A model generated the notes under the pieces. That model worked only from the letters and a program-made list of their open reading frames with translations. It made no database searches and had not been told where the DNA came from. A stretch of DNA of 38,540 nucleotides from Methanomassiliicoccales archaeon (GTDB lineage Archaea > Thermoplasmatota > Thermoplasmata > RBG-16-68-12 > SOIM01), in assembly GCA_030593295.1 (NCBI GenBank), contig JAUVHO010000018.1, forward strand, positions 1 to 38,540, given 5' to 3'. Below are positions 8,426-37,515 of the stretch, piece after piece. The position numbers and the translations under genes were made by a program. How positions within the stretch are numbered: position 1 is the first letter of the stretch; every line of letters starts with the position of its first letter.

Positions 8426-8463
8426 GCTCCGCCCCCTTGATGGCACTGAAAAGGACTATTCGG

Positions 8464-9989: not shown

Positions 9990-10010
9990 GCGACAGAGGA
10001 AGGTTTGAAT

Positions 10011-21372: not shown

Positions 21373-21471
21373 ATGTCAGACCAGAAGTTCAAACAACTCT
21401 TCGAAGAACGCCTTCGTGAATTCATGAAGGAGAACGAAGATCTTTTGAATCAAATAGCCGATAGGTTCTGA
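21373..21471 (+). CDS. Possible 32-residue small protein
   Basis: A short frame encodes MSDQKFKQLFEERL then REFMKENEDLLNQIADRF, a highly charged peptide with the heptad-like spacing of an amphipathic helix. A good TATA box lies upstream, and purine-rich GAGAGAG and AGGAT precede the ATG. Its last 22 bases overlap the 3' end of the opposing Fic-like gene. Length is near the limit for confident calling and no family is recognised. Small helical partners are common for toxins, so an antitoxin-like role is conceivable, but the convergent arrangement is unusual for such pairs. The rest of the 21186-21449 interval shows no other gene. Confidence 0.35.
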   Translation: MSDQKFKQLFEERLREFMKENEDLLNQIADRF

Positions 21472-21902
21472 GTAATCCACTCTCGTATTTCGTTTTCGGA
21501 CGCGCAATAGTTCTCGAATCTCTCCAAAGTTTCCAGGAGTTCGTCATCTGTCATTTGTACAAGTTTCTTGCCGAAAGCCCCCAGTATCTGATCAATCAAT
21601 CCAAGTGCGGTCCGGTGGTTACAATTCTTTAGTGGCTGGCGATTTGTGAAGAAATGAAAAGCCCAGGCTGCAATCTCAATATATGGAAGTCGACTGCCAA
21701 CTCTTTCCTTGAGCCCCTCTTCGAACTCATCGATTAGATTCGATAGTCTGACACCTTCCTCGAAAGTCTCCGGGCAGTGAACATCCCTTCCCGTGCCGGT
21801 CTTGGCCACTCTGAGATAGACCTCTTTCACTTCCTCCAAACCGAACTTGGTCAGGAACTCATACCCTTCTGAATCTTGATTCAAATCCTCTTCATGAACC
21901 AC
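21450..21902 (-). CDS. Fic/Doc-family-like protein with altered active site
   Basis: A 150-residue protein resembling the Fic/Doc fold, whose active members transfer AMP or phosphate to target proteins. The helix pair and motif are recognisable: IEIAAWAFHFFTNRQPLKNC then NHRTALGLIDQILGAFGKKL. Aligned with the Doc motif HPFxDGNKRTAL, it reads QPLKNCNHRTAL. Asn, Arg and Thr remain, but the catalytic His is Gln and the Asp is Asn, so usual AMP- or phosphotransfer is doubtful. The GTG start is about 27 bases from a weak TATA-like CTTAAG, consistent with a leaderless message. It sits alone between two giant surface-protein genes, with only a tiny convergent ORF nearby. Confidence 0.6.
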   Translation of the reverse strand: MVHEEDLNQDSEGYEFLTKFGLEEVKEVYLRVAKTGTGRDVHCPETFEEGVRLSNLIDEFEEGLKERVGSRLPYIEIAAWAFHFFTNRQPLKNCNHRTALGLIDQILGAFGKKLVQMTDDELLETLERFENYCASENEIREWITQNLSAI

Positions 21903-21954: not shown

Positions 21955-24480
21955 TCAAGAGGTGCCCTCGAGCACCCACACCCAGTAGGCATGACCGACC
22001 ACGAATGTTTCAGAATCATTCAGTTCTCTTGTGTAGAAAGGTGGGCTCATTGGATCGTATTCCTCCACCCTTACCGCGCCTGTGATGTTCTTGAATTCGG
22101 CCGCTGTGCATATCTGCCCATGGTCTGAATAACCGATCAGATTCCAACCAGTCACCAAGTTGGCAGGGGTTGGTGATGGCACATTTCCTGCGACGGTGAG
22201 ATTTGAATCTTCAGTGACATTAACCCAGAAACCCATCGTATGGTCGATATTGATGCTGGCCAAGCTATAGGGTTTGGATTTCACAACGGAACTCCATTCT
22301 TTGGTGATTGAATCAAAGAACCACGCCTGGCTGAAGGGCAGACTTCCCAATACGGAATCAACCCTAGGGTCATGCAGAACAAGAGGAACAGATACGAGAT
22401 TGGGACCTTTGGCCAGACTTCGAGTGAACTTCCCGACCTGATCGTCAGAGCATCTCGTCCTATTGTTCACATCCACCGCGCACACCCGATAGAAGTAGTT
22501 GCTGGGATCTCCCTCACCTGCCAAAGCATCTTCGAACTCAAACGTCCCGTTAGGCACGCTGGCAATGAGTTGATATTCATCACCATCGGAGCTGAAGTTG
22601 GACCCTCTGAAGACCCTGTACTCGACGACCGATCCCTGTCCGGAACCATCGTCCATGGACAAGGACCAGTTGATGGCCACATTCTCCCTGTCATTTCCGC
22701 TCAGAACGGCTTTCACACTAGTGGGGGATGCCGGTATCGCAGTGGGAATGGAGGCGGCCTCGTTCGATCTGGGACCTTCACCGACACCGTTCACAGCAGT
22801 GACTCTGTAATAGTGGCGCGCACCATTCGCCACTGTTGTATCATTGTAGTGGGTGAACCACGGTTGATCGGCAATACTGACTTCCTCTCCGGCACCAGTT
22901 CTCCTGTAGACCTTGTACGATGTCACTGGGAAACCTCCGTCAGAACTCGGTGGAGACCATGTCAGGTCCACGTATCCATCCCCCCAGGAGGCCAGCAGAT
23001 CCTCCGGTGCGGTCGGCAGATTCCAGGGAGGACTGATCAAGGGATAGAGATCCTGGCTGTTGGAGTCTATCTCATAGGGGACGTTGCCGATGCCGTCTGG
23101 ATCCGACTCGTTCTGGCTTGGGCCCTTGAACTGATCCGTACCGACATAATCGCTCCAATAATTCCCTCCAGCGGGATATCCATACTCCCAAGAATTCTCA
23201 TTCCCCTTATTGTCCCTAACCTGCTTGGTGTTGTTCTTGAACTCGTTGTGGAATGTGACCATGCCTTCGGAATTCTCCAGATACATCCCGCGCAAGTTCT
23301 CCGAGAAGATGTTGTTGGTTACCGTTGAGTTGGCAGTCTGGGTAAGCCGTATCCCGTCCACATTGTTGGAATGGAACCGGTTCCTGGTAAGTGTCAGTTC
23401 ATCCGAGTTGGATGCTGCGAACCCGTGGATCCAGTTATCGTAGACTTGGTTCCTCGTGAAGGTGATATTTGACGAAGCCTCCGAATAGGCGCCGTTAGCG
23501 TTACTGAAGGGGATGTTATCGGAAATGGTGATGTCCCAGGAGGCAGAGATGTATACACCAAACCGGTTTGTCCTGAAAAGGGTCCTAGATATGCTAACAT
23601 TACTGGAGTTGTACACGTGGATGCCGTGGACGTCGTTATCGATGATGTTGCTCAGATCCACCGTGATGAGAGAAGAGGAGTCGAAGTACATGCCTTGGAG
23701 GATGTTACGCGTGGCCTCGGAACCGGAGATTGATATGGAAGATGATGCAAGAAGTGCAAGGCCAGTTGGGTTCTCCGTGTACGTGTTGCCGGAAAAAGTG
23801 ATGTCTGTGGAAAGGCTGACACGAATCCCTTCGATCTGATTCATAGTTATCTCGTTCTCAAGTAGGGAGATGCCGCTTGATGATGAGATGGTAGCGCCGA
23901 CCCGGTCGTTCTGAGAGAAAGTGTTCGCCTGAATTGTAATGTTGTATGAGGTTACGACGGCCAGCCCGTCATGCCGACCGTTGCCTTCCACGAGGTTGGC
24001 TTCGATCGAAATGTCGTAGGAATCCTTGATGTACAGACCTCCCTCATTGTCTGTGATGTTGTTGGAGACAATGTCCACACTGCTTGAACCCCTTATGTTC
24101 ATGCCTTTCCAGTTCTCGGTGATGTTGGAACATTCGACACGTCCATTGACCAGGTCCCTCAGGGATATCCCGTAGTAGGTCAATCCACTGGAATGCACGA
24201 ACACGTTGCGAACGATGAAGTGGGCGCTGGTCTCCCGGATGGTTATGCCGCTGGCCTTTCCAGCCTTGATCTCCCATCCCTCGATGACATACGGGTCTGA
24301 TGCCGTACCATTGCCGCCGGTCACCCCATTGACCGCATTGAAGTCTTCGTTCCCGAAAATGTATATCGTTGAGTGTGGAATGAAAGAGTCTCCACCCTCG
24401 CGTGTAGGACCACCAATGACCAGTGTCCCACTGACTAGAAGTGTGCACACAACACCAATTATCCATGCTCGGATTCTCAT
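21955..24480 (-). CDS. Large secreted NosD-like beta-helix protein with two FN3 domains
   Basis: An 841-residue exported protein. It has a signal peptide (about 1-25, IIGVVCTLLVSGTLVIGG), an N-terminal domain with STIYIFGNEDF and DPYVIEGWEIK, and a NosD/CASH parallel beta-helix of repeats such as SYDISIEANLVEGNG to about residue 480. Two fibronectin type III domains (about 489-578 and 580-675) and a C-terminal domain (about 683-841) with GPNLVSVPLV, MGFWVNV and GWNLIGY follow. That last domain is shared with the interrupted gene at 10011-12281. There is no C-terminal membrane helix, so the protein is released or held by another mechanism. The ATG at 24480 with AGGGATGTGAGG upstream was chosen over a TTG 21 bases earlier. 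Polysaccharide binding is likely, but enzymatic activity is unproven. Confidence 0.85.
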   Translation of the reverse strand: MRIRAWIIGVVCTLLVSGTLVIGGPTREGGDSFIPHSTIYIFGNEDFNAVNGVTGGNGTASDPYVIEGWEIKAGKASGITIRETSAHFIVRNVFVHSSGLTYYGISLRDLVNGRVECSNITENWKGMNIRGSSSVDIVSNNITDNEGGLYIKDSYDISIEANLVEGNGRHDGLAVVTSYNITIQANTFSQNDRVGATISSSSGISLLENEITMNQIEGIRVSLSTDITFSGNTYTENPTGLALLASSSISISGSEATRNILQGMYFDSSSLITVDLSNIIDNDVHGIHVYNSSNVSISRTLFRTNRFGVYISASWDITISDNIPFSNANGAYSEASSNITFTRNQVYDNWIHGFAASNSDELTLTRNRFHSNNVDGIRLTQTANSTVTNNIFSENLRGMYLENSEGMVTFHNEFKNNTKQVRDNKGNENSWEYGYPAGGNYWSDYVGTDQFKGPSQNESDPDGIGNVPYEIDSNSQDLYPLISPPWNLPTAPEDLLASWGDGYVDLTWSPPSSDGGFPVTSYKVYRRTGAGEEVSIADQPWFTHYNDTTVANGARHYYRVTAVNGVGEGPRSNEAASIPTAIPASPTSVKAVLSGNDRENVAINWSLSMDDGSGQGSVVEYRVFRGSNFSSDGDEYQLIASVPNGTFEFEDALAGEGDPSNYFYRVCAVDVNNRTRCSDDQVGKFTRSLAKGPNLVSVPLVLHDPRVDSVLGSLPFSQAWFFDSITKEWSSVVKSKPYSLASINIDHTMGFWVNVTEDSNLTVAGNVPSPTPANLVTGWNLIGYSDHGQICTAAEFKNITGAVRVEEYDPMSPPFYTRELNDSETFVVGHAYWVWVLEGTS

Positions 24481-24650
24481 CCTCACATCCCTCGTACTCA
24501 ATTGGGTCGAGTATTGATATCAAGATTGTGTAGCCAGTGTGTTTATGTCTGAATTAAAACCGGACATTGTGTTGGACAATATTTTGTGGAAGAACCGTAG
24601 CATCCATTGAAACATGAACACAACGCCCAGAAACCACACGCAACAACCAT

Positions 24651-24756: not shown

Positions 24757-25896
24757 ATGGACTTCGATTTCGATGAGGAGCATGAGTTATTCCGAAAGAG
24801 CTTGGAGAAGTTCGTCGAGAACGAAGTACTCCCGGTCGCACAGGAGATAGATGAAAAGGGGAAGTTCCCTCACGAGCTCTTCAAGAAGGCTGGTGACCTC
24901 GGTTATTTCGGCCTGAGATATCCGACGGAGTACGGAGGGACCGACGGCGACAGCATCATGTTCTGCATACTCTGTGAGGAGCTGGCTAGAGGTTCATTGA
25001 GCTTTGCGACGGGAGTGATGATGCAGGCGCTGCAGAGCACTCATTTTCCATTCAAGTCGGGAACTGAAGAGCAGAGGCAGAAGTACATAGTCCCGGCGAT
25101 AAAAGGGGAGAAGATGGGGGCATTCGCCCTCACCGAGCCGGACGCGGGTACGGATCTGGGGTCCTTAAGGACCACAGCGGACAAGGATGGCGACGAATAC
25201 GTTCTAAACGGAACGAAGGCATGGACGACAAATGCCCAGGTCGCGGATTTCTTCACCGTCTTGGCTGTAACGGACAAGGAAAAGAAACTCAGAGGTGTGG
25301 ATTTCTTCTTGGTCGAAAGGGACAACCCAGGCCTGACGGTGGGTAAGGATGTGCAGAAACTTGGACTGAGAGGGACCGAGACGGCGGAGCTGGTTCTCGA
25401 AGACTGTCGCATACCTAAAGAGAACCTGCTTGGAGAGGAAGGGACGGGTTATGATTCTCTTATGGACATCCTCGCTGAGATACGCATAATGACAGGGGCA
25501 CTGTCCGTCGGCCTTGCCCGCTCCGCACTGGACATGGGAGTGAGATACGCCAATGAGCGCGTACAATTCGGAAGACCCATCGGGAAGTTCCAAGCGGTTA
25601 GGATGAAATTGGCAGATGTTGCCACCGAATTAGAAGCAGCGAAGTTCCTCGTATACTACTCGGCCTGGCTGATGGACAAAGGTAGGAAATGCACAAAGGA
25701 GGCCGCCATGGCGAAGCTCTTCGCGACCGAGATGGCTGTCAAGGCTACGGATGAGGTTTCACGAGTGTTCGCAAGTTATGGGTTCTCAATGGAATATCCA
25801 ATTCAAATCCTGCTAAGGGACGCCAGGTTCCTCATAATTGGAGGAGGAACGTCCGAGATATTGGGACTTATCATAGGAAGAGAGTTGGGATTGTGA
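24757..25896 (+). CDS. Acyl-CoA dehydrogenase
   Basis: A 379-residue FAD flavoprotein that introduces the trans-2 double bond into an acyl-CoA. Family motifs are YPTEYGGTDGDS (about 55-66), FALTEPDAGTD (123-133, flavin contact), WTTNAQVADF, RYANERVQFGRPIGKFQAV (about 263-281, FAD adenine region), and GGGTSEI (362-368). The position of the MCAD catalytic Glu is Gly363. In the IVD/LCAD type the Glu sits in helix G directly before Arg, but here that residue is Ile242 with Glu241 one step earlier. The catalytic base is therefore unclear. It is the first gene of the operon, has a GGGG ribosome-binding site 7 bases before ATG, and is followed after 4 bases by a hydratase. Branched or short acyl-CoAs are likely substrates given the mutase downstream. 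Confidence 0.92.
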   Translation: MDFDFDEEHELFRKSLEKFVENEVLPVAQEIDEKGKFPHELFKKAGDLGYFGLRYPTEYGGTDGDSIMFCILCEELARGSLSFATGVMMQALQSTHFPFKSGTEEQRQKYIVPAIKGEKMGAFALTEPDAGTDLGSLRTTADKDGDEYVLNGTKAWTTNAQVADFFTVLAVTDKEKKLRGVDFFLVERDNPGLTVGKDVQKLGLRGTETAELVLEDCRIPKENLLGEEGTGYDSLMDILAEIRIMTGALSVGLARSALDMGVRYANERVQFGRPIGKFQAVRMKLADVATELEAAKFLVYYSAWLMDKGRKCTKEAAMAKLFATEMAVKATDEVSRVFASYGFSMEYPIQILLRDARFLIIGGGTSEILGLIIGRELGL

Positions 25897-25900
25897 TCGA

Positions 25901-26362
25901 ATGACATACAAATTCAAGGGAAAGAAGTTCGACGAGTTCGATGTTGGGCAGGAGTTCACCACCGCGTCCAGGACGATAACCGAGGGGGATGTCTCAACGT
26001 TCGCCGGTCTTTCAGGCGACTTCAATCCGTTGCACACGGACGAAGAACACGGAAAAGGGACACCTTTCGGAGGCAGGATCGCGCATGGACTGCTGGCCGT
26101 GGCAGTTTCGACGGGTCAGGCGAACCAATTGGGGATCTTCGAGGGTACGACGATAGCGCTCCTCAGCATGAGCTTCAAGTACACTGGCGCGGTCAAGTTC
26201 GGGGACACGATCCACACCGTTCTCAAGGTGGCGGAGAAGAAGGAGACCAGCAAGCCGGACAAGGGAGTTATCACCTTTGACGTTTCAACGCTCAATCAGA
26301 AAGACGAATCGGTCGTCGAAGGCCAGTGGGTCATAATGCTTCAGAGGGAGGCGAGTTCATGA
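25901..26362 (+). CDS. MaoC-like (R)-specific enoyl-CoA hydratase
   Basis: A 153-residue hot-dog-fold hydratase that adds water to 2-enoyl-CoA, usually giving the (R)-3-hydroxyacyl-CoA. The catalytic pair D40 and H45 is present in GDFNPLHTD, followed by FGGRIAHGLL with the conserved Gly-His. The N-terminal FDVGQEFTTASRTITEGDVSTFA is typical of the MaoC/PhaJ group. It lies 4 bases after the acyl-CoA dehydrogenase and overlaps the next gene by 4 bases (ATGA), so it belongs to the same transcript. Using a MaoC hydratase with an SDR dehydrogenase replaces the usual crotonase and HAD-type 3-hydroxyacyl-CoA dehydrogenase of beta-oxidation. Confidence 0.9.
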   Translation: MTYKFKGKKFDEFDVGQEFTTASRTITEGDVSTFAGLSGDFNPLHTDEEHGKGTPFGGRIAHGLLAVAVSTGQANQLGIFEGTTIALLSMSFKYTGAVKFGDTIHTVLKVAEKKETSKPDKGVITFDVSTLNQKDESVVEGQWVIMLQREASS

Positions 26363-27102
26363 GATTGAAGGACAGAGTTGCCATAGTAACAGGTGGTGGA
26401 AGTGGGATCGGAGAGGCCACCGTGCTGAGATTCGTGGAAGAGGGGGCCAAGGTCGCCATCGTGGATGTCGTAACGGAAGGCGCCAACAAGGTCGCAGAAG
26501 CGGTCAAAGAGAAAGGAGGAGAAGCGCTCGTTCACCAGGCAAACATAGTCAAGAAGGATGAGGTGGACGGGATGGTAGCGGCTACACTGGATCGGTTCGG
26601 AAGAGTTGACATTCTCATAAACAACGCAGGCATCAACAAAGACGCGATGACCAAGAAGATGACCGAGGAGCAGTGGGACCAGGTGCTGGAAGTCAACCTG
26701 AAGGGAACATTCCTTTGCTCTCAATCGGCCGCAAGACCGATGATGGAACAGAACTACGGCAGGATAATCAACACCGCATCCATAGGCGCACTGGGTAGCG
26801 TCGGTCAGGCCAACTATTCCGCTTCCAAGGCGGGCGTGATGGGTTTGACGAAAACCCTTGCGCTGGAACTGGCCAGATACAGTATCACGGTAAACTGCAT
26901 TTCACCAGGAGCAACCAAGACCCCAATGCTGGCAAAAATGCCAGAGGAGATCGCAGAGATGCTCGTAAAGAAGATTCCACTGAGAAGGTTCGCTGAACCG
27001 GAGGAACTTGCCAACGCGCACCTTTTCCTAGCAAGCGAAGAAGCTGCCTACATCACAGGCCAGATCATATTCGTGGACGGCGGGATCAGCGTGGGGTTCT
27101 GA
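26359..27102 (+). CDS. SDR-family 3-hydroxyacyl-CoA / 3-oxoacyl dehydrogenase (FabG-like)
   Basis: A 247-residue short-chain dehydrogenase/reductase. The nucleotide motif TGGGSGIG begins at residue 11, NNAG at 88-91, and the catalytic residues are S141, Y153 and K157 (ANYSASKAG). Asp36 at the end of the second strand (AIVDV) favours NAD(H) over NADP(H), which fits an oxidative role: (R)-3-hydroxyacyl-CoA from the MaoC hydratase to 3-oxoacyl-CoA. The ATG at 26359 overlapping the preceding stop was preferred to one at 26326, since the SDR fold begins there. FabG-like naming reflects similarity only. Fatty acid synthesis is unlikely in an archaeon. Confidence 0.9.
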   Translation: MRLKDRVAIVTGGGSGIGEATVLRFVEEGAKVAIVDVVTEGANKVAEAVKEKGGEALVHQANIVKKDEVDGMVAATLDRFGRVDILINNAGINKDAMTKKMTEEQWDQVLEVNLKGTFLCSQSAARPMMEQNYGRIINTASIGALGSVGQANYSASKAGVMGLTKTLALELARYSITVNCISPGATKTPMLAKMPEEIAEMLVKKIPLRRFAEPEELANAHLFLASEEAAYITGQIIFVDGGISVGF

Positions 27103-27111: not shown

Positions 27112-28527
27112 ATGGCTGGCATAATCTCGTATGGAGTGTACCTTCCCAACTATCAGATGTCCGGAGATGTCCTTCAGAGAGCTTGGGGTAAACCGGCTGG
27201 AAAGGGAACTAAGGTAGTGTCCAACTACGATGAGGACAGCCTCACCATGGCAGTCGCAGCCTCCTTGGAGTGCCTCAAGGATCTGGGAGTGGGCATCATA
27301 GACGGCCTATATTTCTCATCAACGACAGCTCCCTACGCGGAGAAGATGAACGCGTCGGTCATCGCGACAGCGTTGGACCTCAACAGAGATGCTTTCACGA
27401 TGGACATCGGTTCTTCCCTCCGATCTGGGTCCAACGGACTGAAGGTTGCATTTGACACTATATCATCAGGTTCGAAGACCAACATAGTAATGGTGGCCTC
27501 GGACAGCAGGATGGCGGAGCCAGGTTCTTACTTAGAGCCATTCCTTGGGGACGGCGCGGCAGCATTCCTGATCGGCAAGGGTAACCCGATAGCGGACATA
27601 GTGGACTATCACTCAGTTTACGACGGACTGCCGGATGTTTGGAGAAAGCAGGATGACCAGTTCCTGCGCCACGACGATGTGCGCTACTCGCGGACAGAGC
27701 ACTACGGAAGGAACATGATGAACGCCATTGAGGGACTCTTCGAGGACGGCAACTACCGCGTCGAGGACTTCTCCAAGGCTGTTATCTTCTCCCCGGACGG
27801 GAGGAGTCACATGACCGTAGCCAAGAACCTCGGATTCCAGCAAGAACAAGTGCAGGACACGCTGATGCTGAAGACCGGTTTGATCGGTTCGGCCCACGGG
27901 CTCATGATGCTGGCAGTCGCACTCGACGAGGCAAAGCCGGACGACCTGATGATGTTCGCCAACTACGGGGACGGTGCCGATGCGTTCGCCATCAGGGCCA
28001 CCAAGTTCATCGAGGACAATGAGAAGGGTTCGCTGCCGGAAGTCGAGAAAGAGAGGAGATCGATAGGTTCGTACACGAAATATCTCGCTTTCAGGAACCT
28101 GATCGGAAACTACCAACTGGAGACGCCGTTCACTTCCATCCCGCTCCTCAGAAGGGAGGAAGAGCTGAGCATAAGGCTACATGGAAAGAAGTGCAACGGA
28201 TGCGGCAAGGTGATGACGCTGGCTCTGAAGGTCTGCCCCCACTGCAAGTCGGCTGAAGACTTCATGGACGTCAGGTTGTCCAAGAGAGGTAAGATCGTCA
28301 CGTACAGCCAGGAGCATTACTATCCTACGCCCGAGCCTCCGGTAACGATGGCGGTCATCGATCTGGAGGGCGGCGGAAGGATACTGGCGCAGATGACGGA
28401 TACGGAAGCGAGCGAGGTGAAGGTGGACATGCTGGTAGACCTGACCTTCAGGAGACTTCACACCGGAGGAGGGTTCGTCAACTACTCCTGGAAGTGCAAA
28501 GCTGCTAGAGGAGGCGGCTCGAAATGA
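27112..28527 (+). CDS. HMG-CoA synthase-like protein fused to a DUF35 zinc-ribbon/OB domain, catalytic residues lost
   Basis: A 471-residue fusion. Residues 1 to about 345 follow archaeal HMG-CoA synthase (start GIISYGVYLPNYQM, DEDSLTMAVAASLECL, GDGAAAFLIG, MMFANYGDGADAF). About 350-471 is a DUF35 acyl-CoA-binding domain with zinc-ribbon cysteines C361, C364, C375 and C378, then an OB fold. Against archaeal HMG-CoA synthase the nucleophilic Cys in EFACKAGT is Leu103 (SSLRSG), the Glu before HPYA is Thr71, and the active-site His region FHQPNGK reads FSPDGR. It is therefore probably not a synthase. It overlaps the thiolase start by 4 bases. Free-standing DUF35 proteins bridge thiolase and HMG-CoA synthase in archaea, so a scaffold or CoA-channelling partner of the thiolase is inferred. 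Confidence 0.85.
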   Translation: MAGIISYGVYLPNYQMSGDVLQRAWGKPAGKGTKVVSNYDEDSLTMAVAASLECLKDLGVGIIDGLYFSSTTAPYAEKMNASVIATALDLNRDAFTMDIGSSLRSGSNGLKVAFDTISSGSKTNIVMVASDSRMAEPGSYLEPFLGDGAAAFLIGKGNPIADIVDYHSVYDGLPDVWRKQDDQFLRHDDVRYSRTEHYGRNMMNAIEGLFEDGNYRVEDFSKAVIFSPDGRSHMTVAKNLGFQQEQVQDTLMLKTGLIGSAHGLMMLAVALDEAKPDDLMMFANYGDGADAFAIRATKFIEDNEKGSLPEVEKERRSIGSYTKYLAFRNLIGNYQLETPFTSIPLLRREEELSIRLHGKKCNGCGKVMTLALKVCPHCKSAEDFMDVRLSKRGKIVTYSQEHYYPTPEPPVTMAVIDLEGGGRILAQMTDTEASEVKVDMLVDLTFRRLHTGGGFVNYSWKCKAARGGGSK

Positions 28528-29708
28528 CCTTCAAGGACAAGATCGCCATCATCGGGGCAGGATGCACCAAGTTCGGCGAGAACTTCAACATGAGCTACGG
28601 CGACATGGTCTTCGAAGCTGCCAAAGAGGCGTTCGAGAATGCTGGTGTCGAAGGGAAGGACATTGATGCTGCCTGGCTCGGGACCGCTTTCCCTGATGCT
28701 GGTGTCTACAAGGGACGGTCGGGGATGGACCTCGCTGAACCTCTGGGCATGTTCGATATCCCTATCACAAGAGTCTCCAATTACTGCGCGACGGGAGGGG
28801 ACGCATTCAGAAACGGATGCAACAGTCTGCTGTCCGGGGAAAGCGATCTTGTTCTTGCGCTGGGCGCTGAGAAGCTCAGGGACAGGACGCCACAGGACAG
28901 TATCGTGAGAATGATGGTGGACACCGGCCACCCAATCTACCAGAAGGGTTTCACCGCTGCCGGGACGTTCGCTGTCGTCGGGACCCGGTACATGCACGTT
29001 TATGGGGACATCACGGAACAACTCGCAAGAATCTCGGTGAAGAACCATTACCACGGATCCATGAACCCGAAGGCGCATTACCAGAAACCTATCACTCTGG
29101 AGACCGCTTTGAAATCTCCAATGGTGGCCTATCCGGTCAACCTAATGGGCAGCTGCCCGACCACGGACGGGTCTGCTGCGGTAGTACTCACCAGGGCCGA
29201 AGACGCGAAGAAGTACACCGATGATTACGTTCTTCTCAAGGGCTATTCACTTTCAATATCAACCGGCTGGGACCTCCCGTTCTATGATCCAGATTATGAT
29301 TTCCTCGGTTACAGGGCAACTCAGGTCGCGGGACAGAATGCGTACAAGCAGGCGGGCATAGAGAACCCGTTAAAGGAACTGGACCTGGCCGAGATGCATG
29401 ACTGCTTCAACGTGGTGGAGTTCATAACGTACGAGGACTTAGGACTCTGCGAGAAGGGCAAGGCAAGCGAACTGATCGACAATGAAGTTACCACACTGGG
29501 AGGAGTACTTCCCGTGAACGTCAGCGGTGGATTGCTGAGCTGCGGACATCCAGTGGGTGCGACTGGGGTAAGAATGCTGTATGAGCTCACCAAACAACTT
29601 CAGGGCAAGGCGGAGAAGAGACAGGTAGAGAACGCAAGGTTGGGACTGGCACATAACATCGGAGGACCAGGAGCGGTCGCATCAATCACGATCCTCGGAG
29701 CGAAGTAA
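28524..29708 (+). CDS. Thiolase (acetyl-CoA C-acyltransferase, SCP-x/archaeal type)
   Basis: A 394-residue thiolase performing CoA-dependent cleavage of 3-oxoacyl-CoA to acetyl- or propionyl-CoA plus shortened acyl-CoA. All catalytic elements are present: nucleophile C88 in [13 protein letters not shown]292 in [10 protein letters not shown], and C340 with H342 in [12 protein letters not shown]. The fold resembles the SCP-x/archaeal thiolases that work with DUF35 partners rather than bacterial FadA. The ATG overlaps the stop of the DUF35 fusion (ATGA), indicating coupled synthesis of the presumed complex. The mutase small subunit begins one base after its stop. Confidence 0.92.
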
Positions 29709-29709: not shown

Positions 29710-30105
29710 ATGAAGAACCCCATAAGGGTCCTGATAGCAAAACCCGGCCTGGACGGTCATGACAGAGGAGCCAAGGTCGTTGCTATTGCTTTGAAAGAAG
29801 CCGGGATGGAGGTCATCTACACGGGCCTGAGACAAAGTGTGGAGCAGATAACCAGTGCCGCGCTCCAGGAGGACGTTCAGGTAGTAGGTCTGAGCATCCT
29901 GTCCGGCGCGCATATGCCAATCACAAAGAAACTGATGAAGATGATGAAAGAAGAAGGGCTCGATGAAGCGATGGTGCTGATAGGAGGCAACATTCCCAGG
30001 AACGATGTCAAGAAGTTGAAGGCACTGGGCGTCAGGGAAGTGTTCCCGACGGGTTCCAAGTTCGACGATATCGTTAAGTTCATTCAATCCAACATTCCCA
30101 ATTGA
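29710..30105 (+). CDS. Methylmalonyl-CoA mutase small (cobalamin-binding) subunit
   Basis: A 131-residue B12-binding domain that carries adenosylcobalamin for the mutase encoded next. The base-off/His-on signature is clear: [10 protein letters not shown] (His is the lower cobalt ligand), LSILSGAHM and LIGGNIP. The length is that of a separate archaeal subunit, split from the large subunit. It converts (R)-methylmalonyl-CoA to succinyl-CoA together with its partner. It sits in the beta-oxidation operon between thiolase and the large subunit, with gaps of a few bases. An epimerase and a MeaB/ArgK chaperone, usually nearby, are not in this window. Confidence 0.93.
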
Positions 30106-30131
30106 GTTGGTCATCCAGTAAGGTGCGAGAG

Positions 30132-31736
30132 ATGAAGAAGAAAGTGGAGTTGCCAGATGTTGTGCTCGAATCCGGGATAAAGGTGAAGCCGATCTATGGG
30201 CCGGAGGATGTCAAGGACATAGACTACGAGAAGGACATTGGGGAACCGGGAGAGTATCCGTTCACCCGCGGGATTCACAAGTACATGTACCGGTTCCGGC
30301 CGTTCACCATGAGGCAGTACTCTGGATTCGCGACCGCGAAGGAGACCAACAAGCGGTTCAAGTATCTCATCAAGCAAGGGCAAACTGGATTGAATGTTGC
30401 TTTTGATTTGCCTACTCAATGTGGGTTGGATTCTGACGATCCTTTGGCCGAGGGAGAGGTTGGAAGGGTTGGAATGGCCATCGACACTCTGAAGGACATG
30501 GAGGACGCGTTCGAGGGGATACCGATAGACAAGATCGGCACCTCGTTGACAATCAATTCAATGGCGCCGATAATGCTGGCGATGTATGTTATTGTTGCAG
30601 AGAAACAGGGCGTTCCAGCTAATGAGGTCAGAGGAACTCTGCAGAATGATATCCTCAAGGAGTACATCGGAAGGGGGACCTGGGTCTTCCCGGTTGAGCC
30701 ATCCATCAAACTGATAGGGGACACGATAGAGTACTGCTCCAAGTACGCGCCCAAGTACTACCCAGTTAGCGTTTGTGGCTATCACATCAGGGAATCGGGT
30801 GCCAATCCAGTTCAGGAAATCGCGTATGCATTTCTAATCGCGAAGGCATACATCCAACATGTTCTGGACAGGGGACTGGATGTTGATGATTTCGTTCCGA
30901 GATTCTCGTTCAACTTCGACATTCACGGCAACCTCTTCGAGCAGATAGCGAAGTTCAGGGCGGCAAGAAGACTGTGGGCGAGGATAGTGAAGGAAGACCT
31001 GGGTGCCAAGGACCCGAAGTCGATGCAAATGAAGATGATAGCTGGTGGTGGCGGTGGAGGGTTGACCATAGAACAGCCAGAGAATAACATCGTCCGTGGT
31101 GCCTACTACGCATTGATCTCCTCACTCAGTGGCACTCAAACAATGGCCTTGTGTTCTTACGACGAGGCCTACACCATACCTTCCGAGAAGGCGGCTGTTA
31201 TTTCTCTCAGGACAATGCAAATCCTTCTGGACGAAATGGGTCTGCGGGACACGGTGGACCCGCTGGCTGGTTCCTATTACATCGAGAGTTTGACTAGTGA
31301 ACTTGAGAAGCTCATCTGCGAGATGATGGAAAAGGTGGACAAGAAAGGCGGGATAGTCAAAGCAGTGTCCGATGGGTACATCCAGAACGAAGTGGCAAAG
31401 CAGGCTTTCCTACTGGAAAAGGGCATCCAGGAAGGCAAGATCATCAAGGTGGGCGTCAACAAGTACCGAGAAGAGGAAGAGGAGAGGGAGATTGAGTTCC
31501 ACGATTACAAGTCTGAGGAAGCAGAGAAGCAGATCAAGAGGCTCAAGAAGGTGAAGAAGGAGAGGGATGACTCGAAGGTGTCCAAAGCTCTCAAGGAACT
31601 GAAGAAGGCTGCGGAAGCTGGAGATAACCTGATGGATACGGTGATCGATGCTGTCAGGGCTTATGCTACGGTCGGAGAGATCACTGCGACGATGAAAGAG
31701 GTCTACGGGGAGTTCAAGGAACCTGTGAGGTTGTAG
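30132..31736 (+). CDS. Methylmalonyl-CoA mutase large (catalytic) subunit
   Basis: A 534-residue TIM-barrel subunit of adenosylcobalamin-dependent mutase. Recognisable features are YPFTRGIH, RPFTMRQYSGFATAKETN, GLNVAFDLPTQCG, LQNDILKEYIGRG, VCGYHIRESGANPVQE and FRAARRLWARI. The Tyr of MRQYSG and the Arg ten residues after the Gln of LQND match the two carboxylate-binding residues of methylmalonyl-CoA mutase, arguing against isobutyryl-CoA mutase. An in-frame TTG at 30102 overlaps the previous stop. The ATG at 30132, with AAGGTG six bases upstream, is preferred. The C-terminal 80 residues are rich in Lys/Glu and likely helical. The gene ends in TAG, one base before the next ATG. Confidence 0.93.
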   Translation: MKKKVELPDVVLESGIKVKPIYGPEDVKDIDYEKDIGEPGEYPFTRGIHKYMYRFRPFTMRQYSGFATAKETNKRFKYLIKQGQTGLNVAFDLPTQCGLDSDDPLAEGEVGRVGMAIDTLKDMEDAFEGIPIDKIGTSLTINSMAPIMLAMYVIVAEKQGVPANEVRGTLQNDILKEYIGRGTWVFPVEPSIKLIGDTIEYCSKYAPKYYPVSVCGYHIRESGANPVQEIAYAFLIAKAYIQHVLDRGLDVDDFVPRFSFNFDIHGNLFEQIAKFRAARRLWARIVKEDLGAKDPKSMQMKMIAGGGGGGLTIEQPENNIVRGAYYALISSLSGTQTMALCSYDEAYTIPSEKAAVISLRTMQILLDEMGLRDTVDPLAGSYYIESLTSELEKLICEMMEKVDKKGGIVKAVSDGYIQNEVAKQAFLLEKGIQEGKIIKVGVNKYREEEEEREIEFHDYKSEEAEKQIKRLKKVKKERDDSKVSKALKELKKAAEAGDNLMDTVIDAVRAYATVGEITATMKEVYGEFKEPVRL

Positions 31737-31737: not shown

Positions 31738-32925
31738 ATGAAACCGCTGTTGGACGGAGTTAGAATTCTGGATTTGTCTCACATGCTGGCTGGCCCGTAC
31801 TGCACCCTGATGTTGGCCGACCTAGGTGCCGAAGTGATAAAGATCGAGACACCTGGTGAAGGGGACCGGATAAGGCGAATGGGCATCTACAAGATCGGTG
31901 GGCAGAGCGCATATTTCCTGAGCGTCAACAGGAACAAGAAGAGCGTCACCTTGAACCTCAAGTCGGACAGAGGGAAGGAGATATTCTACGAGCTGGTGAA
32001 GAAATCCGATGTGGTGCTGGACAACCTGAGACCTTCGACGCTGGAGAAACTTGGCGCGGCCTATGAGGAAATCAAAAAGCACAATCCCAAGATCGTTTCG
32101 TGCTCCATAACCGCCTTTGGGCCCACTGGTCCGTACGCCGATCGTCCTGCTTTTGATCTCACGCTTCAGGCGATATCCGGGGCCATGTCATACACCGGAG
32201 AGCCGGGGAGACCTCCGGTAAGATTGGGTCTTCCCATGGGAGATTTGGCGGGGGCGATGATGGCGGCCTATGCCATCTCGTCAGCACTGTACAAAAGGGA
32301 AACGACGGGAGAGGGCTGCAAGCTGGACATCAGTCTGTTGGATTGTATGGTCTCACTTCACACTTACGTTACGCAATACCTCATTGCAGGGTCTCCGATC
32401 CCAGAACCTATAGGGTCTGGCCACATCTCGGTGGTTCCGTACGGTGCATTCAGAACTGCGGACGGTTGGATCACGATCGCGGTCTTCACAGAGAGATTCT
32501 GGAAGAACTTCTGCGAGATTCTGGGAATATCGGAGCTAGCGACGGACGAACGGTTCGCGACCAACAACGACAGGAGCAAGAATAGGGAGATCCTCATTCC
32601 GATAATCGAAGATAAGCTGGATGACAAGACAACGGACGAGTGGGTGGAGATCCTCAGCAGGGAACGGATTCCATGTGGAGCGTTGAAGACGGTCGATAAG
32701 GTGCTGGAGGATCCTCAGGTCAGGCATCGGAACATGGTCGTGAAGATTGAGATTCCGGAAGGGGGAGAGACGGAAGCCATAGGGAATCCGGTGAAGGCAG
32801 AGGATGTGGAACAGGAGTACAAGTTCTCGCCAGAGCTCGGGGAGCATACGGATGAGATGTTGAGAGAACTAGTTGGTCTCGATCAACATGAAATAGAGGA
32901 CCTCAGAAAAAACCGGATCGTGTAA
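31738..32925 (+). CDS. Family III CoA transferase (CaiB/BaiF)
   Basis: A 395-residue family III CoA transferase that moves CoA between an acyl-CoA and a free acid. The N-terminus GVRILDLSHMLAGPYCTLMLADLGAEVIK (cited in parts) and the catalytic Asp169 in GLPMGDLAGAM are diagnostic, and VNRNKKSVTLNLK is the CoA-contact segment. It lies one base after the mutase gene and so is translated from the same operon. A natural role would be to exchange CoA from succinyl-CoA, the mutase product, to an incoming fatty or branched acid, closing the pathway without ATP. Other donors cannot be excluded. Confidence 0.9.
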   Translation: MKPLLDGVRILDLSHMLAGPYCTLMLADLGAEVIKIETPGEGDRIRRMGIYKIGGQSAYFLSVNRNKKSVTLNLKSDRGKEIFYELVKKSDVVLDNLRPSTLEKLGAAYEEIKKHNPKIVSCSITAFGPTGPYADRPAFDLTLQAISGAMSYTGEPGRPPVRLGLPMGDLAGAMMAAYAISSALYKRETTGEGCKLDISLLDCMVSLHTYVTQYLIAGSPIPEPIGSGHISVVPYGAFRTADGWITIAVFTERFWKNFCEILGISELATDERFATNNDRSKNREILIPIIEDKLDDKTTDEWVEILSRERIPCGALKTVDKVLEDPQVRHRNMVVKIEIPEGGETEAIGNPVKAEDVEQEYKFSPELGEHTDEMLRELVGLDQHEIEDLRKNRIV

Positions 32926-32958: not shown

Positions 32959-33678
32959 GTGGAGAATGCTCAAGATTATCCACCCGAACCGTTTTCCATA
33001 TACTTTCTCACGAGAGTCAAAGGGGGGTATGAAGTCGTGGTGCGAGGAATATACGAAGGGCTTGTTCATCTCGGATGGAAGCTCGCTGAACTGGATCTTT
33101 ACAAAGGGAACAATGAAGTGGATACCAGTGACATGCTACCAGTGGAGGTATTGCGGGTCCCCCTTGTTAAATTGAGACACACAGCCAGCGCCAAGTTTCT
33201 GAAGGATGATCGACACGTCTTCGTTTGGATAGCGTATGATGCCGTTTTCGACGATGGGGCACCACCACATGGGATTGAAATCATGTCCCACAACACATTC
33301 TTCGACAGTCCCGAGGCGTTCAACGAGCTGAAGACACTCTTCTCCCACCTTCATCTTCCTGAGAAGACTGTGGTGACAGGAGACACGTTTTTCACCTTTA
33401 TGGATGAGGGGAAGACCTGGCTATTCATGTGGAACGACCAAGCATCTGGATTCAATTGGATTGACACAATGAAGTGCTCGATGTGGGAGAACTTGATGAA
33501 CTCATTTCCAGCTATGGAAGAGAACCTTCTGGCCAAGGTTGACGAGTACTGCATAGTCGCAATGGGAGAGTCGCCATTCGCTGAAAAGGACGAAAAGGTC
33601 AAGGTCTCTCCAACGGCACGAAAAAGGAAGCCCAAGTCGTACATACCCAAGTGGTTTCGGGGACAGAGAAGTCCGTGA
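32959..33678 (+). CDS. Hypothetical protein, 239 residues
   Basis: No family recognised. The GTG start follows the CoA transferase by 33 bases with neither a clear TATA box nor a strong ribosome-binding site, so it could be the last gene of the operon or separate. The protein appears soluble, with no signal peptide or membrane helix. It is rich in aromatic residues, with paired segments HVFVWIAYDAVFDD and TWLFMWNDQASGFNW, and ends in a basic tail (ARKRKPKSYIPKWFRG). Codon use is more A/T-rich than in the operon upstream. The start is uncertain. It converges on the beta-helix gene with an 11-base gap. Confidence 0.65.
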   Translation: MENAQDYPPEPFSIYFLTRVKGGYEVVVRGIYEGLVHLGWKLAELDLYKGNNEVDTSDMLPVEVLRVPLVKLRHTASAKFLKDDRHVFVWIAYDAVFDDGAPPHGIEIMSHNTFFDSPEAFNELKTLFSHLHLPEKTVVTGDTFFTFMDEGKTWLFMWNDQASGFNWIDTMKCSMWENLMNSFPAMEENLLAKVDEYCIVAMGESPFAEKDEKVKVSPTARKRKPKSYIPKWFRGQRSP

Positions 33679-33689: not shown

Positions 33690-35681
33690 TTATCCTTGCT
33701 TCTTCCACCAGCCTCTGAGAAGAAGACGAATTGTGATTAGATTAAGTGAGACTACGGCACCCAGTAAGAGGATAGCCTCCCAGAACCAATTCTCCTCTGC
33801 TTCTGGTGCATTGTCAACCATCAGAATGATTGATACTTCGTTCGAATAGCGAAAACCATCATGGGAACGAGCATAGAGAGTGTGTTTTCCATCGGAGACA
33901 AGTGATGTGTTCCATGGAAATGTCCATGAGGTAGTTCCATCCGTCAGTACCCATTCATCACCATCATCAATTCTGACCTCGACCGCCCTAACGATCCCAT
34001 CGGAGTCGTAAGCTGTTCCGAAGATGATGTGAGTACAATGGATTTCAGTCCCAGTGGGAGGACCAGTTATATTGCACAACGGGATGTTGTCTGTAAAAGG
34101 CTGAAGAGGAAGCTTAACGGGTTTCATGAAGGGATACCAGTCCTTAACGAAGCTCTCCTGAATCACATATGGCACATCACCAATTCCATCGCGCCCCAGG
34201 CCATCTTGGAATGGTCCACTCTTCTCATCAACGCCTTTGTAGTCGCTCCAGTAGTTGCCTCCAGATGGATATCCACTTGACCACGAATTGGTCCTGGTGC
34301 CGGGGTGAGTTTGAATTGAATTGTTTACGAAGTTGTTGTGAAAAATCACATTGCCTCCAGAGTTACTAAGATATATCCCACGACTGTTATTTGAAATGAA
34401 GTTGTTGATGATCTGATTTCTATCGGAATGATGGAGCCCAAGGCCATAATCACCATTCCATTCAATGTTGTTCGCAGAGAGGTGGGTCAATTCCGAGAAG
34501 TAGAGTATCAAGCCATCAAATCTGGACAAGTTGACTACATTGGCTTCAACAACGTTACCGAAGGACCGACCGATACGAATGCCAGTGTAGCTATAGAGGA
34601 CAGTGTTATTTGTCAGAGTGTTGTTGCCAGAGTAGTGTAGTGTAATTCCATCGTAATTCTCCAAGGCAGTATTGTGTATGACGGTATTATTCTCAGAATG
34701 TGCAAGGCTGATACCATCGAAGTTTCCTGAAACTAGGTTGTTCGAAATCACGTTGCCTGAGGAGAAGCCAAGCTGAATTCCTAAGGAAGCATTGCTCAAA
34801 GACAAACCCTCGACAAGCACATTTGAACAATTGGCCAGTATGACCTGTCCTGCATTCGATGGAACTGAGCCATGGACAACATTACTCCAATAATAGAGAG
34901 TTCTTCCGTTGACCATGTTTGAAGAGCCCATGGTATGAGAATTCCAATACTCGAGAGAGTTTCCCTCAAGGAGGATTCCGTCGTTTGTCAGAACGTTGCT
35001 TAGGATGGTAGTGGTTGTCGAATCTTGAAGGTAGATACCATGCCTGTTATCTGAGATTACATTGCCAACGATAGAGTTGTCACTTGAGTCGCGGATACGA
35101 ATTCCGTAGAATGAGTTCGAAAGCCAGTTGTTGCTTATCCAGTTGTTGTTGGAATGGGAGAGAAGGATGCCACCCTTGGAGAGAATGCTATTGGTAATCG
35201 AGTTGTTGTTGGATTGTCTGAGATGAACTCCAGGATCGCCACGAGGAATGACTGTACTATCAATAGTGCAATTATCCGCGCTTTCGAGTTCCAGTCCAAC
35301 GGCCCATTTGCCTGTGATTGTGAGTCCAGTGATATTGACCCAGTCGGCAGTGACTTGTATGACATAACGTCCTGAACGAGATTCAAGTATCGTCAGGTCC
35401 TTGTCCTCTCCAACAAGTGAGAGTGTCTTGTTCACCAGTACGCTTTCCTCATAGGTCCCAGCGAATAAGAAAATAGTATCACCGGGGCTGGCATCGTCCA
35501 CAGCGCTCTGAATTGTCGTGAAATTCCCAGGTCCAGATCCTCCGACATATAATGTGGGAGCTCTGACAATTCCTGGCAAAGCAATCAAGACGACAGGAAA
35601 TGTGCTCATCAGAAAGAGAAGGGTAACAATCAACTTGGATTTCTTGTCTGAACATTCCACAACGAAGTCTTTCAGTCCCAT
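33690..35681 (-). CDS. Secreted NosD-like beta-helix protein with Ig-like domain and membrane anchor
   Basis: A 663-residue surface protein, the shorter cousin of the one at 18288-21185. It has a signal peptide (about 15-38, LIVTLLFLMSTFPVVLIALPG), the LYVGGSGPGNFTTIQSAVDD opening, an Asn-ladder parallel beta-helix to about residue 490, and one WNSH/NGRTLYYWSN module (about 34765-34985). An Ig-like domain with SDGKHTLYARSHDG (about 530-625) and a single transmembrane helix (about 631-655) ending in WWKKQG follow. It lacks the FN3 domain of its relative. The start is ATG at 35681, directly after an in-frame TTG. It lies 74 bases downstream of gctB on the same strand, and 35685-35755 shows no clear promoter. 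Confidence 0.85.
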   Translation of the reverse strand: MGLKDFVVECSDKKSKLIVTLLFLMSTFPVVLIALPGIVRAPTLYVGGSGPGNFTTIQSAVDDASPGDTIFLFAGTYEESVLVNKTLSLVGEDKDLTILESRSGRYVIQVTADWVNITGLTITGKWAVGLELESADNCTIDSTVIPRGDPGVHLRQSNNNSITNSILSKGGILLSHSNNNWISNNWLSNSFYGIRIRDSSDNSIVGNVISDNRHGIYLQDSTTTTILSNVLTNDGILLEGNSLEYWNSHTMGSSNMVNGRTLYYWSNVVHGSVPSNAGQVILANCSNVLVEGLSLSNASLGIQLGFSSGNVISNNLVSGNFDGISLAHSENNTVIHNTALENYDGITLHYSGNNTLTNNTVLYSYTGIRIGRSFGNVVEANVVNLSRFDGLILYFSELTHLSANNIEWNGDYGLGLHHSDRNQIINNFISNNSRGIYLSNSGGNVIFHNNFVNNSIQTHPGTRTNSWSSGYPSGGNYWSDYKGVDEKSGPFQDGLGRDGIGDVPYVIQESFVKDWYPFMKPVKLPLQPFTDNIPLCNITGPPTGTEIHCTHIIFGTAYDSDGIVRAVEVRIDDGDEWVLTDGTTSWTFPWNTSLVSDGKHTLYARSHDGFRYSNEVSIILMVDNAPEAEENWFWEAILLLGAVVSLNLITIRLLLRGWWKKQG

Positions 35682-35755
35682 CAATGGTTCAAGTGAGATG
35701 GTGGATACTTCAAAGTTGCGTGGTACCTACCACAAACATACCAGAAAAAGGGATT

Positions 35756-36541
35756 CTAATCAACCCGTCCAATCACAACTCTATCAGGATCTATCTCTTC
35801 TCTCAGAATCTTGAGCTCATCTTCTGTCGGCGGTCCCAGCTGTTCAAGCTCATCGGCCACAACTGGCTCAAACTCCATGTTCTCCAGAACGTCCTCTTTA
35901 GTGACTCCAGGACACAACCCAATCAACCGCATCACTTTGGTCTCCTCATCAAAATCGAAGAGAGCCTTTGATGATACAACCCTGTGCGGTCCGCTGTCTC
36001 TCGGAAGTCCCGCATTCTCCCTCGCACCTGGACCATCCAGATAACCAGGAGAAGTAATGAAATCTACCCGCTCCAGGAACCTCCTCTTCTCATGTTGCAT
36101 CAGAACGATCGTCTTCCAGCACAAGGAAGCGACCTCATTGCCTCCACCACTGCCAGTGAACCTCTTCTTGGGCTTCTCATAATCCTTGCCGATGATTGTG
36201 GAGTTGATATTCCCGTACTTGTCAATCTGAGCCGCCCCCAGGAACCCGTAGTCGATATACCCCATCTGAGCTTGAGCCATCATCCTGTTCATTGACATCC
36301 ATGAAAATGACCTGTAGCTGTTCCTAGCATCCGCCATCATGTTCCTCTTGAACGGTGTGGCCACCTCCGGACCGATCGCACCATACTCGTACACTTGACA
36401 GATATTGGGTGAATACAACTTCTGAGCCAGAATGGCAGCGATTTGGGGCATCCCATAGCCCACAAAGACCGTCCTATTGTCCTCGATCAACCTGGAAGAG
36501 AGGCATATCATCTGCTCGACGTCGGTGTAGGTCTTGCTCAA
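35756..36541 (-). CDS. gctB: Glutaconate CoA-transferase-like subunit B
   Basis: The beta subunit of a family I CoA transferase, about 261 residues. The likely catalytic Glu is in CQVYEYGAIGP (residue 52 from the chosen start). FTGSGGGNEVASLC and FITSPGYLDGPG are typical of GctB-type subunits. Two starts compete: ATG at 36562, which would overlap gctA by 25 bases, and TTG at 36541, which overlaps the gctA stop as TTGA and has GGAGGG six bases upstream. The TTG is preferred. The pair transfers CoA between acetyl-CoA and a dicarboxylic or hydroxy acid (glutaconate, 2-hydroxyglutarate) or a related acid. The exact substrate is not determined. Confidence 0.88.
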   Translation of the reverse strand: MSKTYTDVEQMICLSSRLIEDNRTVFVGYGMPQIAAILAQKLYSPNICQVYEYGAIGPEVATPFKRNMMADARNSYRSFSWMSMNRMMAQAQMGYIDYGFLGAAQIDKYGNINSTIIGKDYEKPKKRFTGSGGGNEVASLCWKTIVLMQHEKRRFLERVDFITSPGYLDGPGARENAGLPRDSGPHRVVSSKALFDFDEETKVMRLIGLCPGVTKEDVLENMEFEPVVADELEQLGPPTEDELKILREEIDPDRVVIGRVD

Positions 36542-37515
36542 TAGTATCCCTCCTTGATCCATTCGCGTTCCTTCAGCTCCTTCATCCTCGCCTCCCCGCC
36601 GACCATTTCCATGTAGTCCTCGTGACCTGAAATCGAGTGAACATACTTGTCGATGTACTCCCCCAGTTCCTCCAGGCTCCTTGCGGCGAAGAACTCCTCC
36701 AAGTGTTCTGAGTCATACGAATAATATCCAGGAACAGTCCCTGGGTGTGCACCATAGGGCGCAACAACAACCGCGTTCACCATGTAGTATGGAATCGTAG
36801 TCTTCCCAGGATCCTTCTTTATCTCGTCGGTGCTGATAATCTCTTCAGTGGACAAAATGACATTCTTAGAAGCCGCAGCAGTCTCAAGCGGAGTAATGCT
36901 CGGACCGTAGACCCTGGCGTTACCGTAAACATCACATTGATTCACATGGATAATCGCAACATCGGGGTTGATAGCAGGCACCAATGCGACTTTCTTGCCG
37001 GTAAATGGCTCCTCGACCACCTTAGCTCCAGAATGTTTGAAAGTATCCGTCCCCAGCAAGGACCGAGCAGGCAAGAATGGAACGCCCATCGCCCCGGCCA
37101 GATGCCTCAAGGCCAGAGTCCCGTTCGACCAATCGATCGTCTTGACGATACCATTCTCAATAGCCTCGAACAAAGGCCTCCCAAGACCGGCAAACCCCAC
37201 ATCGATCTTCGAGACGCAGCCTCCTCCGACAAGAAGAGTAGTATCCAGCAGAGTAAACTTCGCAGCGATCCACAGGTCCTTCTTCTTCTGCCTGACGATC
37301 TCCCTCTCGATGGACATTGGGCCTCTGACCATGGAGCTCAGATCATAGCTGATGTAGTCGCCATCATTCACGAACTTCCTCACAGCCTCATGCTCGTCCA
37401 TGACCTTTTCTTCCAGCGCCCTGGTCTTCTTGTCCCTCATCCATTCTCTGACGTCGTCCACGTCCTGCAGAAGCACCTCACCCATTCCAGATTCTAGCAC
37501 GTCCAACTCATCCAC
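36538..37515 (-). CDS. gctA: Glutaconate CoA-transferase-like subunit A
   Basis: The alpha subunit of the same family I CoA transferase, about 325 residues. It shows the GctA-type core: VRKFVNDGDYISYDLSS, GGCVSKIDVGFAGLG, LGTDTFKHSGAKVVEEPFTG and PDVAIIHVNQCDVYGNARVYG. The N-terminus (SGMGEVLLQDVDDVREWM) is longer than in the classical bacterial enzyme. A GTG at 37515 opens the frame but touches the ribosome-binding sequence GGAGGT. A TTG at 37506, nine bases after it, may be the real start (322 residues). It overlaps the MoaD-like gene by 8 bases if the GTG is used. Its place downstream of aldehyde oxidoreductase suggests amino-acid fermentation. Confidence 0.88.
   Translation of the reverse strand: MDELDVLESGMGEVLLQDVDDVREWMRDKKTRALEEKVMDEHEAVRKFVNDGDYISYDLSSMVRGPMSIEREIVRQKKKDLWIAAKFTLLDTTLLVGGGCVSKIDVGFAGLGRPLFEAIENGIVKTIDWSNGTLALRHLAGAMGVPFLPARSLLGTDTFKHSGAKVVEEPFTGKKVALVPAINPDVAIIHVNQCDVYGNARVYGPSITPLETAAASKNVILSTEEIISTDEIKKDPGKTTIPYYMVNAVVVAPYGAHPGTVPGYYSYDSEHLEEFFAARSLEELGEYIDKYVHSISGHEDYMEMVGGEARMKELKEREWIKEGYY

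Follow-up and report, generated by a model that had tools for sequence, protein, structure and literature searches.

Our analysis implies that an archaeal gene at positions 27112 to 28527 encodes an HMG-CoA-synthase-like pseudoenzyme fused to a DUF35 domain, and that this protein is probably the non-catalytic scaffold or lid subunit of a DUF35-dependent thiolase that serves the degradation of organic acids; we infer both the complex and this role from the loss of the catalytic triad and the pairing with a thiolase gene. The window, by which we mean the whole analysed stretch of 38,540 nucleotides from a Methanomassiliicoccales archaeon, carries the gene within an operon whose members run in one direction in the order given here, with the domains and active-site codons of the fusion listed below it:

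24757..25896, + strand: acyl-CoA dehydrogenase, same operon (Pfam)
25901..26362, + strand: MaoC-type enoyl-CoA hydratase (Pfam)
26362..27102, + strand: SDR (FabG-like) 3-hydroxyacyl-CoA dehydrogenase (Pfam/NCBIfam)
27112..28527, + strand: fusion gene of the HMG-CoA-synthase-like pseudoenzyme and DUF35, intact ORF of 471 aa
27112..28104, + strand: HMG-CoA-synthase-like domain of the fusion, residues 1-331 (NF003274 1-331; 6esq_I 3-328; Foldseek)
27322..27324, + strand: codon 71, Thr in the column of the catalytic Glu (alignments)
27418..27420, + strand: codon 103, Leu in the column of the nucleophilic Cys (alignments)
27787..27792, + strand: codons 226-227, Phe-Ser in place of His-Gln of the FHQPNG motif (alignments)
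28171..28509, + strand: DUF35 part of the fusion, zinc ribbon and OB fold, residues 354-466 (Pfam; 6esq_E match; Cys conservation)
28524..29708, + strand: thiolase, SCP2/HDCF type (C88 at 28785-28787; HDCF at 29397-29408; H342 at 29547-29549)
29710..30105, + strand: B12-binding (small) subunit of an acyl-CoA mutase (TIGR00640 above cut-off)
30102..31736, + strand: methylmalonyl-CoA-mutase-type large subunit (PF01642, TIGR00641 above cut-off; active-site motifs)
31738..32925, + strand: CaiB-type (family III) CoA-transferase (PF02515)

The archaeal HMG-CoA synthase (HMGCS) profile NF003274 matches residues 1-331 of the fusion with 219.5 bits (E 6e-65; curated cut-off 244) and TIGR00748 gives 166 bits (E 1e-48; curated cut-off 353). 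Compared with what characterizes HMG-CoA synthase (EC 2.3.3.10), the domain has the fold, lacks the catalytic Cys, Glu and His and misses both curated cut-offs. The initial annotation had placed such a synthase-like stretch at the N-terminus; the similarity to the archaeal enzyme stands, but the stretch ends near residue 331 and not at residue 345. The Pfam families zf-ChsH2 and OB_ChsH2_C, which together correspond to DUF35, match residues 354-447, the latter with 44.8 bits (gathering score 27.1) and the former with 21.7 bits, slightly below its cut-off of 23.2. The Cys4 zinc ribbon is nevertheless complete (C361, C364, C375, C378), and a fusion of a synthase-type domain to a DUF35 domain with all four zinc-ribbon cysteines is present, as had been proposed.

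The catalytic columns were read from an alignment that set the fusion against canonical HMGCS from its own archaeal class, the copy from the same genome (G000:C60:22619-23644) included. The replacements described earlier at the catalytic sites (Leu103, Thr71 and SPDG) were all three found in the alignment, where IFSPDG of the window faces canonical FHQPNG and the His column itself is occupied by Phe226. The T71, L103 and F226 substitutions are repeated in two genomes of the same genus (95 and 94% identity) and two of the same family (72 and 72%). Chance or sequencing error as the source of the triad loss is ruled out by this recurrence, and the Cys is absent family-wide. A Cys/His/Glu triad elsewhere in the same pocket would have contradicted the pseudoenzyme claim; across 112 fusion rows, residues 1-335 contain no Cys or His column that is at least 80% conserved, and the claim holds against this check.

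The single-chain AlphaFold model of the fusion, built from a 76-sequence alignment, has a pLDDT of 93.3 and a pTM of 0.94. The nearest PDB folds to the synthase-like domain found by Foldseek are the HMGCS of 6esq (6esq_J, TM 0.91), PhlA (0.88) and MucA (0.88), each of them a subunit of a thiolase/DUF35 complex. The model thus predicts that the HMGCS fold is intact in spite of the triad loss. Within the genus, dN/dS of the fusion is about 0.10, equal in both domains, and that of the thiolase is about 0.03. The fusion is under purifying selection, yet it is less constrained than its partner thiolase.

About 115 fusions were gathered from a dozen phyla with search patterns that left all three catalytic positions free. 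A scan of GTDB contigs yielded 80 loci, every one with a full-length fusion, from Dehalococcoidia/Chloroflexota, Desulfobacterota and other deltaproteobacteria, Rokubacteria, Nitrospinota, Acidobacteria, Bacillota and Actinomycetota and, among archaea, from Jordarchaeia, Methanolliviera and Thermoplasmata. None of the 87 aligned fusions, a set that contains a few near-duplicates, has Cys, Glu or His at the respective catalytic column: the Cys column holds L, I, T, A or V (mostly Leu, Ile or Thr), the Glu column is nearly always T, and the His column varies freely (Y, P, F, N, S, D, T, A). The four zinc cysteines are present in every one of the 87. A further 22 more divergent fusions likewise lack the nucleophilic Cys (0/22); two of them have Asp at the Glu position and one (L126) has the His without the other two residues. 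The triad and the Cys were also found in none of six plasmid-borne homologues (from Novosphingobium, Variovorax, Rhodococcus, Azoarcus and Haladaptatus). Five actinobacterial fusions (L138, L140, L141, L143, L144) do not have the four zinc cysteines of DUF35, and therefore zinc is not essential in every family member. Sampling of whole genomes found the family in 67 of 198 genomes (about a third) from the phylum of one Desulfobacterales representative, in 31 of 199 (about a sixth) from the phylum of an actinobacterium and in 13 of 201 from the phylum of a Dehalococcoidia genome; a narrower query gave 5 of 390 in the window's own phylum. Family members carry the annotation 'OB-fold domain-containing protein'. 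One triad-less fusion (L039, 10001-11413) scores 248.3 bits with NF003274, above the cut-off of 244, and pipelines would therefore give it the misleading name hydroxymethylglutaryl-CoA synthase.

On a tree rooted on the canonical HMGCS group, canonical archaeal HMGCS form one group (SH-aLRT 100) and every dead form lies on the opposite side, which holds PhlA/MucA, unfused dead HMGCS (L119 to L122) and the fusions. One clade (support 100) contains 48 of the 51 fusions. Homologues from aerobic plasmids fall among the main fusions, except that of Haladaptatus, which lies near the unfused forms; in the tree with the plasmid homologues, ES2-1 and Haladaptatus are long branches. With the root so placed, this topology makes a single loss of the catalytic triad likely, and the fusion of HMGCS to DUF35 may have arisen more than once, because the placement of the Haladaptatus protein near unfused forms points to a possible additional fusion event. 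At the Haladaptatus plasmid locus (L165, 6829-9416), which could represent this second event, the thiolase is located upstream of the fusion. Other archaea of the class (L119, 5178-7803; L120; L121; L122) have thiolase, dead HMGCS and DUF35 as three genes, with T/T/Q at the Glu, Cys and His positions of the HMGCS, and several of these genomes also have a canonical HMGCS elsewhere. The initial annotation's picture of a scaffold newly arisen at this locus does not survive: the fused form belongs to an old, widespread family, and on the tree the dead forms keep to one side and canonical HMGCS to the other. A separate observation concerns two adjoining family-I CoA-transferase subunits (PF01144) at 35756-37515 on the - strand of the window. 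A homologous pair lies directly behind the unfused thiolase, dead HMGCS and DUF35 set of L119 (5178-9501), which suggests a shared pathway.

An intact thiolase had been noted as the next gene, overlapping the fusion by four bases, and both points hold: the thiolase start overlaps the end of the fusion at 28524-28527, and the motifs C88, H292-D293-C294-F295 and G341-H342 are kept. Its closest solved structures are 7yvy, an archaeal-type acetyl-CoA acetyltransferase, and 6hsj, an SCP2-thiolase type 1 (E 8e-61). A thiolase lies directly downstream of the fusion at 72 of 86 loci, or at 72 of the 79 with room to see it. Seven loci end within 400 bases at a contig edge, three have the thiolase a gene or more away, and four (L042, L050, L058, L108) have no neighbouring thiolase despite the room. 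The C, HDCF and GH(P) motifs are kept in 73 of 73 partner thiolases, that of the window included. Pairwise distances of fusions and thiolases correlate with r = 0.82 (the best of 500 permutations reached 0.12), a correlation that is owed in part to common descent. More telling than this value are three Chloroflexota genomes that each carry two pairs in tandem, where each fusion and its own thiolase fall in the same subtype. Judged by these sequence comparisons, the fusion and the thiolase are inherited as matched pairs.

The proposed beta-oxidation-type setting of the fusion was borne out as well, with acyl-CoA dehydrogenase, MaoC hydratase, SDR dehydrogenase and thiolase genes around it. SCP2-thiolases handle 2-methyl-branched 3-oxoacyl-CoAs. 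Two Desulfobacterales-type loci combine the fusion-thiolase pair with acyl-CoA dehydrogenase, enoyl-CoA hydratase, methylmalonyl-CoA mutase and MeaB, and the B12 subunit also occurs in this setting; one of the loci has a carboxylase subunit, the other a methylmalonyl-CoA epimerase. Such gene sets, with mutase, MeaB and carboxylase or epimerase, fit the release of propionyl-CoA. The window mutase has the Tyr of RQYSG and the Arg of GRGTW, which we take to be marks of methylmalonyl-type mutases. However, C18 of the same genome encodes a further, separate propionyl-CoA route (methylmalonyl-CoA mutase, epimerase and carboxyltransferase), and the mutase of the window operon could thus serve another substrate. 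Partner genes differ widely among fusion loci, one estrogen-type cluster among them. From the gene content and the type of thiolase we tentatively consider a substituted, likely 2-methyl-branched 3-oxoacyl-CoA giving propionyl-CoA as a candidate substrate.

Three paralogues of the methylmalonyl-CoA-mutase large subunit were found in this one genome (window 30102-31736, + strand; G000:C18:7009-8547; C21:18220-19761), and that of the window has the lowest Pfam-model score of the three. Right behind the operon lies an ORF of 239 residues (32959-33678, + strand) with no Pfam or NCBIfam match. The operon is flanked by several very large repeat-rich proteins (18288-21185, 21955-24501 and 33690-35684, - strand; 9891-11399, + strand) resembling surface proteins of the right-handed beta-helix type; the one at 9891-11399, the sole member of this set scanned, has a NosD/Beta_helix match. 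Isocitrate/isopropylmalate dehydrogenase, aconitase-family and HMGL-like synthase genes stand in a row at 4287-8446 (- strand), as for leucine or 2-oxoacid chain elongation, and a small ORF at 21450-21902 (- strand) contains the stretch KNCNHRTALGLI, whose sequence resembles a Fic/Doc motif.

A close parallel comes from PhlACB of Pseudomonas and from MucABC (PDB 5m3k, 9skh, 9vbo), which likewise combine a dead HMGCS-like protein, DUF35 and a thiolase-fold catalyst. PhlA is HMGCS-like without the Cys and Glu, PhlB is a DUF35 protein, and the thiolase-fold PhlC is the sole catalyst (PMC6392133). All three subunits are required, and separately expressed subunits give no activity when mixed; they assemble from A2C2 and B4 as (A2C2)2B4 around a shared cavity lined by all three, and the complex is active without added CoA (PMC6392133). 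PhlA had been called inactive earlier (PMC2954200). PhlA and MucA share the fold of the window domain and its side of the tree, away from canonical HMGCS. However, PhlA and PhlB are separate chains where the window has one, PhlACB is biosynthetic and makes an antibiotic whereas the setting of the window is catabolic, and PhlC performs CoA-independent acyl transfer whereas the window has an SCP2/HDCF-type thiolase. The archaeal complex of acetoacetyl-CoA thiolase, DUF35 and HMG-CoA synthase (6esq/6et9) comprises the same three families and provides the closest fold, but its HMGCS is active in the mevalonate pathway, whereas the triad of the window protein is gone and its neighbours belong to beta-oxidation. 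The genome has its own complete archaeal HMGCS-thiolase-DUF35 operon on C60 (L125). A mevalonate-pathway role of the fusion was ruled out in view of this separate operon and of its mostly bacterial relatives. In the catabolic systems BbsAB, ChsH2-Ltp2 and Shy-Sal, too, a thiolase-fold enzyme is bound by a DUF35 domain (PMC12329534), but none of them has an HMGCS-like part.

A non-catalytic HMGCS scaffold is thus not unprecedented, as had been implied, since PhlA is a published dead partner (PMC6392133, PMC2954200). The reading of the fusion as a non-catalytic scaffold in a beta-oxidation operon remains the best one, but such a scaffold is not new here. A general mention that DUF35 is fused to 'members of the thiolase superfamily' exists (PMC2954200). 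We did not find the HMGCS-DUF35 fusion in catabolic operons, or its breadth, in the literature searched, and the papers on acetone growth of Desulfococcus biacutus and on Desulfococcus multivorans make no mention of it. What was known already is a dead HMGCS in a thiolase/DUF35 complex; what is new is the fusion, the catabolic setting and the breadth. One published cluster appears to contain a member of the family. The edc estradiol cluster includes EGO55_13555, an 'HMG-CoA synthase' beside a thiolase and without an assigned step, for which the authors, finding that the synthase reaction makes no sense there, proposed 'other activities (e.g., thiolase)' (PMC7793797). As in the window, this gene adjoins a thiolase and lies between dehydrogenase and hydratase genes. 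In the estradiol degrader Novosphingobium sp. ES2-1 (L163), the corresponding cluster has at that place a triad-less HMGCS-DUF35 fusion of the fusion clade, which shares about 32% identity with the window protein; the gene after it encodes a thiolase with YCATG, HDCF and GHP motifs. EGO55_13555 itself is likened to the family by gene order in ES2-1, through which we infer its identity. A role as a thiolase subunit would account for this unplaced gene.

By analogy with these systems, the gene would encode the non-catalytic half of a two-gene thiolase, its dead synthase and DUF35 domains doing the job of PhlA plus PhlB, or of archaeal HMGCS plus DUF35. DUF35 would clamp the dimeric thiolase; a dimer of the dead synthase would complete the larger complex and form a wall of the active-site cavity of the thiolase, whose residues C88, H292, C294 and H342 would do all the chemistry of C-C cleavage. 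The complex would take the final step, in which a substituted 3-oxoacyl-CoA is cleaved with CoA, and propionyl-CoA from a 2-methyl-branched substrate would pass to the methylmalonyl-CoA route. The earlier suggestion of CoA channelling has less behind it for this pair than for the archaeal complex, since the pair lacks a second active site that could receive the intermediate.

One could argue that the synthase-like domain retains enzymatic activity through a rebuilt active site and works on a pathway intermediate as, for instance, a hydrolase, a retro-Claisen lyase or a second thiolase. This would agree with the other activity proposed for EGO55_13555 (PMC7793797), with purifying selection as strong in the synthase domain as in DUF35 and with the family-wide conservation of the polar residues D98, D131, R133, E142, D147 and R178. 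According to the 112-row set, R133, G146-D147 and E77 are conserved specifically in the fusion family, whereas D98, D131, E142 and R178 are common to canonical HMGCS and therefore look structural. Additionally, neither a Cys nor a His is conserved within residues 1-335, Leu, Ile or Thr occupy most of the Cys column, the His column is freely variable and a complete thiolase already adjoins; we consider a rebuilt enzyme unlikely. The dead domain could also be a regulatory sensor of acyl-CoA or CoA that adjusts thiolase activity and is not a mere scaffold. Its pocket fold is retained, and the Lys that follows HQPNG in canonical HMGCS is replaced in 87% of fusions by Arg, which could keep CoA phosphate binding. 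However, the same residues could serve packing, and PhlACB works without added CoA (PMC6392133), which leaves a sensor distinctly improbable.

The loss of all three catalytic residues and a dN/dS about three times that of the thiolase could be expected of a decaying, functionless HMG-CoA synthase paralogue. Set against dN/dS of about 0.10 in both domains, intact ORFs in a dozen phyla, zinc ligands in 87 of 87 fusions and a conserved operon position, such a paralogue is extremely improbable; chance, frameshift and pseudogene decay were ruled out by the selection and conservation data. A different question is whether the same architecture acts on 2-acylsuccinyl-CoA, as BbsAB does in anaerobic toluene degradation, with CaiB activating a substituted succinate by drawing on the CoA of the released succinyl-CoA. 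The bbs-type steps employ a CaiB transferase, acyl-CoA dehydrogenase, hydratase, SDR dehydrogenase and DUF35 thiolase, and the window operon has one gene for each. Its DUF35 and thiolase do match the BbsA and BbsB models (NF053627/NF053628), but with 32.8 and 174 bits they stay far below the cut-offs of 250 and 750, by which membership in BbsAB was rejected. Most bacterial relatives have no CaiB neighbour and BbsAB has no HMGCS-like part, and we regard this substrate as rather doubtful.

The scaffold or lid subunit of a DUF35-dependent thiolase therefore remains our preferred reading of the fusion. On balance, we lean towards a widespread, as yet unnamed two-gene thiolase class with the dead HMGCS-DUF35 protein as an obligate subunit, to which many automatically named bacterial 'HMG-CoA synthases' without a mevalonate role would belong. 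Such thiolases would be a general device by which anaerobic and aerobic catabolism (of fatty acids, steroids and estrogens) cleaves 3-oxoacyl-CoAs that are bulky or branched. The thiolase-subunit reading offers an assignment for the 'HMG-CoA synthase' of the estradiol cluster (PMC7793797), and this can be put to the test in a cultivable, genetically tractable strain. The unfused active, unfused dead and fused dead forms represent a natural series for the change from an enzyme to a scaffold.
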